Source: Betaproteobacteria bacterium
Lineage (GTDB): Bacteria; Pseudomonadota; Gammaproteobacteria; Burkholderiales; Ferrovaceae
Length of the DNA: 39,085 nucleotides
Direction of reading: 5' to 3'
NCBI GenBank assembly: GCA_018971415.1
Contig: JAGXAW010000010.1
Span: 1-39,085 of the forward strand
A model generated the notes under the pieces. That model was not told where the DNA came from and did no database searches. It saw nothing but the letters and a program-made list of their open reading frames with translations. Of the stretch, positions 34,977-37,082 are shown piece by piece. The translations under genes and the position numbers were made by a program. Position 1 is the stretch's first letter; every line of letters starts with the position of its first letter.

Positions 34977-35291
34977 ATGAGAGATCCTGGAAAAATAGTT
35001 TCATTGTTTTTGTTATTACTCATTACGCTCCTTAGCTATTCACTGTTTATTGGTAAGGGTGGATGGCTTAGAATACGCAGTTTAAGTCAGCAGATAAGCC
35101 AACAAAAAGATGCCAATGTTCAACAAAAAATACGTAACGATGCTTTGAGTGCTGAGGTAAAAGATCTTAAGCAAGGCACAGATGCTTTAGAAGAACACGC
35201 CCGAACTGACCTCGGTATGGTGAGACAGGGCGAAACTTTTTACCGTTACGTCAATCCTTCAGCTGGCCCGTTACCAAAAAATACCCCATAG
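34977..35291 (+). CDS. ftsB: Cell division protein FtsB
   Basis: A 104-residue bitopic membrane protein of the FtsQLB division complex. One hydrophobic helix (about residues 8-25, IVSLFLLLLITLLSYSLF) is followed by GKGGWLRIRSLSQQISQQ and a coiled coil of some 35 residues, then LEEHARTDLGMVRQGETFYRY, the conserved C-terminal FtsB segment. Its place immediately after eno is the standard proteobacterial context. The stop codon is only two bases from the stop of the convergent bamD gene. Confidence 0.95.
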   Translation: MRDPGKIVSLFLLLLITLLSYSLFIGKGGWLRIRSLSQQISQQKDANVQQKIRNDALSAEVKDLKQGTDALEEHARTDLGMVRQGETFYRYVNPSAGPLPKNTP

Positions 35292-35323
35292 CATTAAATT
35301 ATTTTTTTCCACCAAGGGGTATT
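35280..35323. terminator. Inverted repeat enclosing the stop codons of ftsB and bamD
   Basis: AATACCCC (35280-35287) pairs perfectly with GGGGTATT (35316-35323) across a 28-base loop that holds both stop codons and a run of seven T (35302-35308). The structure is symmetric and would work on both transcripts, but the T-run is in the loop rather than after the stem, so it is an atypical terminator or simply a transcript-end hairpin. Confidence 0.35.
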
Positions 35324-36094
35324 AATGCTGGGTTTATTCTTAAGAAATTTACTGTTCGGAAAATCTTGATTGAGTACCCTTAAAGTATCATCTGCCAATT
35401 GAGTTAAGTGCATGGCCTGATAACTTTTTGCCATGATATAGAGGGCTTCTTCTGCTTGTGGACTTCTAGAATACTGGGTAATGACTTCTTTAGCCCGGTC
35501 CACCGCCGCAAGGTAGGCTTGGCGCTTATAATAGTACCTCGCCATAATGACGTTCCCCTTGGCTAATGCATTGACGATGTAGCGCATACGCACCGTTGCA
35601 TCGGGAGTGTATTTACTTTGAGGAAAGCGGGTCACCAATTCTTTGAAGGTCTCAAAGGCCTCTTTGTAAGGCTTGGTATCCCGTTGCGCAAGATCATCAG
35701 GAGAGTACACGCCAAACAAACCCAAGTCATCATCAAAATTGGCTAAGCCTTTCATATAGTAGGCATAATCCACGCCAGGATGATTAGGGTGAGCCTTGAT
35801 AAAACGATCAGCTTCGCTAATGGCTGAAGCTTTTTCACCTTGTTTGTAGTAGGAGTAGATTTGTTCTAATTCCGCCTGTTGAGAATAAATTCCGTAAGGG
35901 TAGCGAGTTTGTAACGATTCATACAGTTTGGCTGCTTGTTCGTAGTTACCATCTAGCATTTGTGCTTTGGCTTCTGAGTAGATTTTGGATGCTGACCAAT
36001 TTTTAGTTGGATCAAGGTCATCTGTCATGCCACTGCAACCTATCAAGGCCAAAGATGCAGTGAGCAGTAAAAAACGGGTTATACTAATGTTCAT
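35294..36094 (-). CDS. bamD: Outer membrane protein assembly factor BamD (ComL lipoprotein)
   Basis: A 266-residue outer-membrane lipoprotein, the essential partner of BamA. A lipoprotein signal ends in LIGC (lipidated Cys20). The mature part begins with the family pattern WSASKIYSEAKAQMLDGNYE followed by TPR-like helical repeats (QAAKLYESLQTRYPYGIYSQ; VDYAYYMKGLANFDDDLG; FKELVTRFPQSKYTPDA). The start codon is separated by one base from the divergent rluD start, the conserved neighbour in many proteobacteria. A short GGA serves as ribosome site. Confidence 0.96.
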   Translation of the reverse strand: MNISITRFLLLTASLALIGCSGMTDDLDPTKNWSASKIYSEAKAQMLDGNYEQAAKLYESLQTRYPYGIYSQQAELEQIYSYYKQGEKASAISEADRFIKAHPNHPGVDYAYYMKGLANFDDDLGLFGVYSPDDLAQRDTKPYKEAFETFKELVTRFPQSKYTPDATVRMRYIVNALAKGNVIMARYYYKRQAYLAAVDRAKEVITQYSRSPQAEEALYIMAKSYQAMHLTQLADDTLRVLNQDFPNSKFLKNKPSINTPWWKKII

Positions 36095-36095
36095 A

Positions 36096-37082
36096 ATGTC
36101 CGAAGTAAATTTTGATTTAATTGATTATACCAGTCTTGATGAATCTGACCCAATTGATGTCATGATACCTCACGATTTGGCCGGTTGTCGTCTTGATCAA
36201 GCGTTAGTTTCTCTCTTACCTGATTATTCCAGAAGCCGACTTCAACAATGGATTAAAGATGGGTCAATAAAACTTAATGGTGAGTTGGCCCAACCTAAAG
36301 ACAAGGTATGGACCGATGATACAGTGTCCGTTCTTGTTCCTGAAGAAGTGGATATGGATGTCATTATTCCGCAAGCCATTTCTTTAAATATTGTTTTTGA
36401 AGATGAAGACATTATGGTGATTAACAAGCCCGCTGGATTGGTGGTTCATCCCGGTAATGGCAATTGGGATAATACCTTACAAAATGGGTTGCTCTTTTAC
36501 AACGAACAACTAAAAATGGTGCCTCGCTGTGGTATTGTTCATCGTCTCGATAAAGACACCAATGGTTTGATGGTGGTGGCTAAAACTTTAGCTGCTCATC
36601 AAGACTTAGTTCGCCAACTGCAAGCAAGAACAGTTAAACGACATTATTGGGCCTGTGTTCAGGGTATGTTAACCATAGCGGGACAGGTGGATGCTCCAAT
36701 TAGTCGTCATCCAACTCAACGGACCAAAATGGCTGTGGTAGCAACTGGGAAAGAAGCTTTAACCTACTATGACGTGATAGAGCGCTTACCCTGCCACACC
36801 TTGGTGGAGTGTCATCTCGCCACTGGCCGCACCCATCAAATTCGGGTACATATGCAATTTATCGGCCACCCTCTTGCTGGAGATCCTATCTATGGTGGAA
36901 AGACGCCTCGTTTTGATGAGAAAAGTATGGCTGCGTTAAAAAACCTAAATAGACAAGCACTACAGGCTTTTCGATTAGGCTTAATTCATCCCTCTACACG
37001 AGAATATTGTGAGTGGAGCATTCCTTTAGCTCAAGACTTAATCGCTTTGGTAGAGGTATTAAGAGACTGTCGATATGAATGA
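36096..37082 (+). CDS. rluD: 23S rRNA pseudouridine synthase RluD
   Basis: A pseudouridine synthase for helix 69 of 23S rRNA. I choose ATG 36096 (328 residues): the frame stays open back to 35985, but that would overlap bamD by 110 bases and add an unlikely N-terminus. An S4 RNA-binding domain (GCRLDQALVSLLPDYSRSRL, about residues 30-49) precedes the catalytic domain, with the catalytic Asp152 in IVHRLDKDTNGLMVVAKT and later CHLATGRTHQIRVHMQFIGH. There is no Shine-Dalgarno; a TATACT at 36080-36085 would start transcription almost at the ATG. pgeF overlaps its end by eight bases. ATG 36162 is an alternative start. Confidence 0.93.
   Translation: MSEVNFDLIDYTSLDESDPIDVMIPHDLAGCRLDQALVSLLPDYSRSRLQQWIKDGSIKLNGELAQPKDKVWTDDTVSVLVPEEVDMDVIIPQAISLNIVFEDEDIMVINKPAGLVVHPGNGNWDNTLQNGLLFYNEQLKMVPRCGIVHRLDKDTNGLMVVAKTLAAHQDLVRQLQARTVKRHYWACVQGMLTIAGQVDAPISRHPTQRTKMAVVATGKEALTYYDVIERLPCHTLVECHLATGRTHQIRVHMQFIGHPLAGDPIYGGKTPRFDEKSMAALKNLNRQALQAFRLGLIHPSTREYCEWSIPLAQDLIALVEVLRDCRYE
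36124..36153 (-). promoter_or_regulatory. bamD promoter inside the rluD coding region
   Basis: On the minus strand, TGGTATAAT (extended -10; TATAAT at 36124-36129) is preceded at 18 bases by TTGGGT (36148-36153). Transcription would begin about 23 bases before the bamD start codon. The element lies inside the first 20 codons of rluD. Confidence 0.65.

Follow-up and report, generated by a model that had tools for sequence, protein, structure and literature searches.

The analysed window, a stretch of 39,085 nucleotides (nt) on contig JAGXAW010000010.1 from a Betaproteobacteria bacterium of the family Ferrovaceae, carries at its end the genes ftsB, bamD, rluD and pgeF/yfiH. Two of them, bamD on the minus strand and rluD on the plus strand, are divergent and are probably served by two promoters that face each other, each with its −10 element inside the opposite gene. 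The bamD gene (35294-36094) encodes 266 amino acids, and its product is recognized by NCBIfam model TIGR03302 (277 bits, cut-off 81.4) and by a match to Pfam YfiO. The open reading frame starts at ATG 36094-36092; upstream of 36094 no ATG, GTG or TTG occurs before the in-frame stop, and the translation possesses a lipoprotein signal (MNISITRFLLLTASLALIGC) with an LIGC lipobox, consistent with this start. The rluD gene (36096-37082) encodes 328 amino acids counted from ATG 36096 and scores 366.6 bits against the NCBIfam equivalog NF008385 (cut-off 351). Its longest open reading frame begins at TTG 35985, with in-frame ATG codons at 36087, 36096 and 36162. With ATG 36096 as the start, a lone base (36095) separates the start codons of the two genes, as the initial annotation had stated.

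The −10 element proposed for bamD is a TATAAT on the minus strand (36124-36129), preceded by the TGG of an extended −10 (36130-36132). Read on that strand, positions 36132-36124 are TGGTATAAT and lie over rluD codons 10-13 (GAT TAT ACC A..). The coding image of the element on the plus strand (36123-36131) is thus formed by RluD codons 10-12, GAT TAT ACC, encoding Asp-Tyr-Thr. The spacing between a −10 element and the transcription start is usually 7 nt, which predicts a bamD start at 36116-36118 of the minus strand and a leader of about 23 nt. For rluD, a −10-like TATACT (36080-36085, plus strand) is located within bamD codons 4-5 (AGT ATA), 10 nt before ATG 36096; judged from its position, transcription would begin at 36091-36093 and leave a near-leaderless mRNA with about 3-5 nt ahead of the start codon. 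A generic promoter scan of the window listed neither promoter, with 6 promoter-like sites found and 5.1 expected. Such a scan, together with the 43% guanine plus cytosine (GC) content of rluD in this genome, would suit an origin by chance, in which A/T-rich gene starts yield TATAAT-like words and close start codons. Taken alone, the window does not raise the promoter pair above chance; the relatives do.

The relatives comprise 152 genomes of the window's order, taken to be Burkholderiales, picked largely by the similarity of their RluD to that of the window and thin in families with distant RluD; 12 loci from repeat genomes (L165-L175 and L180) and L002, apparently the contig of L031, were removed before counting. 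In all 152 genomes bamD lies beside rluD and is divergent from it. The bamD start was set by a custom lipobox rule, by which some starts look wrong (e.g. L041, L068 and several loci of family f49); it was assignable in 148 genomes, and the other 4 were excluded from the counts. In 133 of the 148 genomes bamD is preceded by perfect TATAAT within 110 nt, and in 119 genomes, representing 40 of 47 families, the distance is 20 to 50 nt. At one exact offset the element recurs in 74 genomes (27 of 47 families), against 0.03 expected from base composition, and many of the relatives sharing this offset have an rluD of 60-72% GC. Pure chance was dropped on this count, and its probability is regarded as negligible.

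Among the 119 aligned sites, in which the TATAAT columns stand at 100% by construction, the second base ahead of TATAAT on the bamD strand is G in 92%, while the T preceding this G is present in only 22% and the G pair of the bamD ribosome site in 62% and 65%. At the −35 distance no column reaches 60%. The bamD promoter therefore looks like an extended −10 (GnTATAAT) without a conserved −35, as far as the alignment of relatives can tell. The initial annotation had placed a bamD promoter within rluD codons, and its −10 part is borne out by this conservation, but the −35 it proposed (36148-36153, TTGGGT) was abandoned, having 3 of 6 consensus matches and no conserved column in the relatives. The one-base spacing, which the initial annotation had wished to see in relatives, is kept in all three congeners (L030-L032, of which two are close kin of each other). 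All four genomes of the genus retain the bamD ATG, the rluD ATG and both hexamers as well, and a 20-nt block (36123-36142) is identical in the four.

In a large part of the order the two genes are even closer. In 82 of the 148 genomes (33 families) the ATG codons of bamD and rluD overlap within a single CATG that keeps the rluD frame, and the one-base spacing of the window is found in 8 further genomes. The codon usage of the RluD tail was analysed in the 82 CATG genomes, which are selected on the shared in-frame CATG only and not on TATAAT. Perfect TATAAT is present in 82 of 82, and the tail carries Asp, His or Asn followed by Tyr (D/H/N-Y) in 80. This Tyr is encoded by TAT in 80 of 80 genomes (39.4 expected), against a TAT:TAC ratio of 226:231 in the gene bodies; in the same 80 genomes the preceding codon always ends in T and the following one always begins with A. 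When the tail Tyr is located by peptide alone, 110 genomes can be used (148 minus 23 whose tail contains a stop and 15 without D/H/N-Y). Of these 110, 108 use TAT for the Tyr (the TAT:TAC ratio in the bodies of the same genes is 301:303), 108 have T as the last base of the preceding codon, and 107 have A as the first base of the following one. With a wide peptide pattern, the tail Tyr is all-TAT in 39 of 40 families.

Other codons of the tail show a comparable bias. A Ser following the tail Tyr is encoded by AGY in 36 of 36 cases, against 199 AGY and 209 TCN in the same genes, under a peptide pattern narrower than that of the 110-gene test, which passes over the TAC cases L177 and L181. On the bamD strand RluD codon 4 reads as GG, 9-10 nt ahead of the bamD ATG and in the position of a ribosome site; in the CATG genomes its third base is G in 0 of 82 (28.5 expected). 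Among three lineages of the genus, codons 10-15 form the only run of at least six identical codons in rluD, and in the gene body 61 of 221 codons for conserved residues are identical. These codon tests also argue against shared ancestry without selection as the source of the conserved element. In a further alignment, 63 CATG genomes were chosen for perfect TATAAT at the commonest offset, by which construction the TATAAT columns stand at 100% and codons 10 and 11 end in T. The third base of RluD codon 13 (36132-36134 in the window), which falls 5 nt ahead of TATAAT when read on the bamD strand and is possibly a spacer contact, is A in 34 of 63 relatives (8.3 expected) and T in the window.

The same residues could in principle be conserved for the sake of RluD itself, the protein needing D-Y-N/S/T and the TATAAT of the opposite strand being incidental. 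Such a need would agree with the invariance of Tyr11 in 28 of 28 aligned RluD sequences (28 of the 32 listed, the long-tailed L069, L073, L081 and L145 being left out; all four of these read NAT TAT Ann), and with the phase of the element, which is the same relative to RluD in 115 of the 133 genomes having it. However, not only the residues but also the synonymous choices for Tyr and Ser are fixed; the element remains in 9 genomes in which it lies beyond the reach of the rluD frame, and it occurs in a different RluD phase in L126. In addition, residues 1-16 have a predicted local distance difference test (pLDDT) score below 50 in the structure model of RluD, i.e. the tail is predicted to be disordered. 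A requirement of RluD for these residues is thus very unlikely. Given the codon bias, the disordered tail and the element without a reachable frame, the simplest account of the conserved tail Tyr is that it is the image of the bamD promoter. The codon patterns indicate that the bamD −10 is selected at the DNA level, forcing the residues D/H/N-Y-N/S/T on RluD, so that part of this protein seems to owe its sequence to the bamD promoter. The initial annotation had expected each promoter to evolve under the coding constraint of the other gene; a promoter that dictates codons and residues is seen, but the reverse direction is not the main pattern.

This reading requires the tail to be translated. 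If RluD started at the equivalent of ATG 36162 (36162-36164), an alternative the initial annotation had itself considered, the tail would be untranslated and the locus would hold an ordinary short intergenic promoter region, possibly of the back-to-back bidirectional type. This ATG is present in all four genomes of the genus, the tail outside the element evolves fast, and in most gamma outgroups the rluD start lies downstream. Moreover, in one study all 75 examined divergent overlaps of more than 60 bp proved to be start mispredictions (PMC2478687), whereas the bamD/rluD overlaps are of 2 bp or none. Against the downstream start, 36 of the 115 genomes with an in-frame element contain no ATG, GTG or TTG between the element and the S4 domain; there, at least, translation of rluD appears to run across the bamD promoter. 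The position of CATG points in the same direction: bamD starts with ATG in 141 genomes and has CATG at its start in 97; in 82 of these the CATG shares the rluD frame and is open to it, where one third would be expected (p 3e-25, ignoring relatedness), with 20 estimated tail lengths. A start at 36162 (residue 23) would also cut the first predicted strand, residues 20-23. We consider the downstream start unlikely, and since its ATG is kept in the genus, the start at 36096 rests there on frame, position and the relatives. The upstream in-frame ATG (36087-36089), GTG in two congeners, is an unlikely start because it lies upstream of the predicted rluD transcript.

One genus (L053, L056, L058, L060 and L061) has a CATG at the start of bamD that does not share the rluD frame, with TACACT 7 nt before it in L056, L058, L060 and L061. 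Perfect TATAAT is missing within 110 nt of bamD in these five genomes, and the out-of-frame position implies that rluD would be preceded by either an extended leader or a short upstream reading frame.

A promoter for rluD within bamD is likely, though less certain than the one for bamD. Aligned over the 63 CATG genomes that have the commonest offset, the hexamer takes the form TAnAMT (A at the second position in 81%, T at the sixth in 71%) and is separated by 7 nt from the ATG. Over all 82 CATG genomes, both A2 and T6 are present in 56, and a match of at least 4 of 6 to TATAAT with the 7-nt spacer in 52. For RpoD promoters of Cupriavidus metallidurans, a published study gives TATAAT, in which conservation is high at the second A and the last T (PMC9045368). 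The bamD codons overlapped by the hexamer are biased: the third base of codon 4 is T in 61 of 79 CATG genomes (13.9 expected) and that of codon 5 is A in 49 of 79 (7.1 expected). In the outgroup the codon 4 bias is absent (4 of 23, 5.0 expected).

Several observations weaken this part of the reading. In the outgroup a mild bias is seen at codon 5 as well (7 of 19, 3.6 expected), and codon 7 has A at its third base in 42 of 79 CATG genomes (8.4 expected), the early bamD codons being A/T-biased. At the commonest bamD offset, a hexamer of at least 4 of 6 matches with the 7-nt spacer is missing in 25 of the 63 CATG genomes. The bamD codon bias is also kept where rluD starts far downstream (12 of 18 and 13 of 16), and several of these far-start genomes have TAAACT or TACACT at the same place; the bias is accordingly independent of a near-leaderless rluD start, and the rluD promoter is perhaps older than that start. 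The early bamD codons were not accepted as proof by themselves, being weakened by their biased neighbours and the far-start genomes, with the outgroup clearing codon 4 only. The near-leaderless rluD mRNA, already put forward in the initial annotation from TATACT, stands as a prediction from a hexamer and a spacing that are both conserved. A leaderless mRNA would call for a −10 element some 7 nt ahead of the start codon; the distance is 10 nt in the window, and 52 of the 82 CATG genomes have the hexamer at 7 nt. The excess of A in bamD codon 7 may itself reflect a further promoter element or a general bias of early codons.

Divergent genes with face-to-face overlapping promoters are a known class, in which the promoters oppose each other and the transcripts are complementary at their 5′ ends, as predicted here. 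The bamD/rluD pair differs from this class in the placement of its two −10 elements within coding sequence, in the recurrence of the bamD element in 40 of 47 sampled families, and in the mark that this element leaves on a protein. In the arrangement that we regard as quite probable, the bamD promoter (GnTATAAT) would lie within the first dozen or so rluD codons and the rluD −10 (TATACT, or TAnAMT in relatives) within bamD codons 4-5, the two −10 elements being opposed and both predicted starts falling between them (on the rluD side in 52 of 82 genomes). In many relatives the rluD reading frame passes through the bamD −10. RNA polymerase leaving either promoter would cross the start region of the other gene, and the mRNAs would in consequence be complementary to each other over about 26 nt of their 5′ ends, that of rluD being near-leaderless. 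Transcription starts, leaderless translation of rluD and competition between polymerases are inferred here.

Bidirectional promoters have shared or overlapping −10 elements. Such a shared symmetric −10 was considered for the locus and set aside, as the elements at 36080-36085 and 36124-36129 point inwards. In E. coli, bidirectional promoters are described as pseudo-symmetrical, their starts diverging and most commonly lying 18 bp apart (PMC12825309). In contrast to these, the −10 elements of bamD and rluD are 38 nt apart and the predicted starts converge; possible competition is common to both. Mutually exclusive transcription, raised in the initial annotation, is a possible consequence: two polymerases could hardly occupy facing promoters together, given the size of their footprint. 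A conserved switch, in which polymerase exit in only one direction at a time and antisense control at the 5′ ends set BamD against RluD across the order, was also considered. If real, it would oppose outer-membrane assembly (BamD) to ribosome maturation (RluD), and the pair offers a ready system for probing the competition of facing promoters. Such a switch is nevertheless doubtful; in the five bidirectional promoters tested in PMC12825309, basal activity is reported to have been too low for competition.

The outgroup consisted of 30 gamma loci (29 and E. coli), of which 2 lacked a divergent bamD and 3 an assignable start. None of the 25 assessable loci shares an in-frame CATG and 3 have perfect TATAAT within 110 nt, which suggests that in the order of the window the start of rluD moved upstream over an existing bamD promoter. 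In E. coli (NC_000913) bamD and rluD are likewise a divergent pair, but 134 nt separate the annotated genes, no start is shared and no perfect TATAAT is found within 110 nt of bamD.

Within the order, a further set of departures counts against the proposed arrangement. Perfect TATAAT is absent in 15 of 148 genomes, among the TATAAT-less being genus g6 (5 genomes) of the window's own family, and the RluD tails of L177 and L181 carry TAC. An extra sample of 30 genomes from families with distant RluD, counted apart from the 152, contains the divergent pair in 27 and an assignable start in 22; of these, 16 have TATAAT, 9 the usual RluD phase and 5 the shared CATG, and the one-base spacing is found in 2. 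In one genus of family f49 the perfect element is present in 8 of 14 genomes, in all 8 in another phase (ATT ATA). With the distant families, the f49 phase and g6 departing from the pattern, the layout is common and not universal. In L176-L192, which belong to one f49 genus, a block like AATTATATCGAC lies about 40-68 nt upstream of bamD, where the rluD frame would give Ile-Ile (ATT ATA), a phase unlike that of the other families.

The locus is a clear natural example of a promoter that dictates residues of the protein encoded on the opposite strand. The Tyr, invariant within a disordered tail, resembles a functional residue and is best explained, on the codon evidence, as the image of the neighbour's TATAAT; conservation near divergent starts, as a caution, need not mean protein function. 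The locus also suggests that very short divergent overlaps of the CATG type can be real and old. In the open literature no paper was found on the bamD/rluD divergence or promoter, on overlapping divergent start codons or on embedded promoters. Both Burkholderia cenocepacia (PMC4603805) and Cupriavidus metallidurans (PMC7563307) have leaderless mRNAs, in the former with a TA-rich promoter motif directly upstream of the leaderless genes; the main text of each paper names neither rluD nor bamD, and in contrast to those transcripts a leaderless rluD is here only predicted. The main text of a Neisseria gonorrhoeae map (PMC4176332) contains no bamD, comL or rluD.

The neighbouring genes are closely packed as well. 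The ftsB and bamD genes stand tail to tail (35289-35296) with 2 nt between their stop codons, so that bamD is tight at both ends. Downstream, rluD and pgeF (yfiH) lie on the same strand and overlap by 8 nt (37075-37082).
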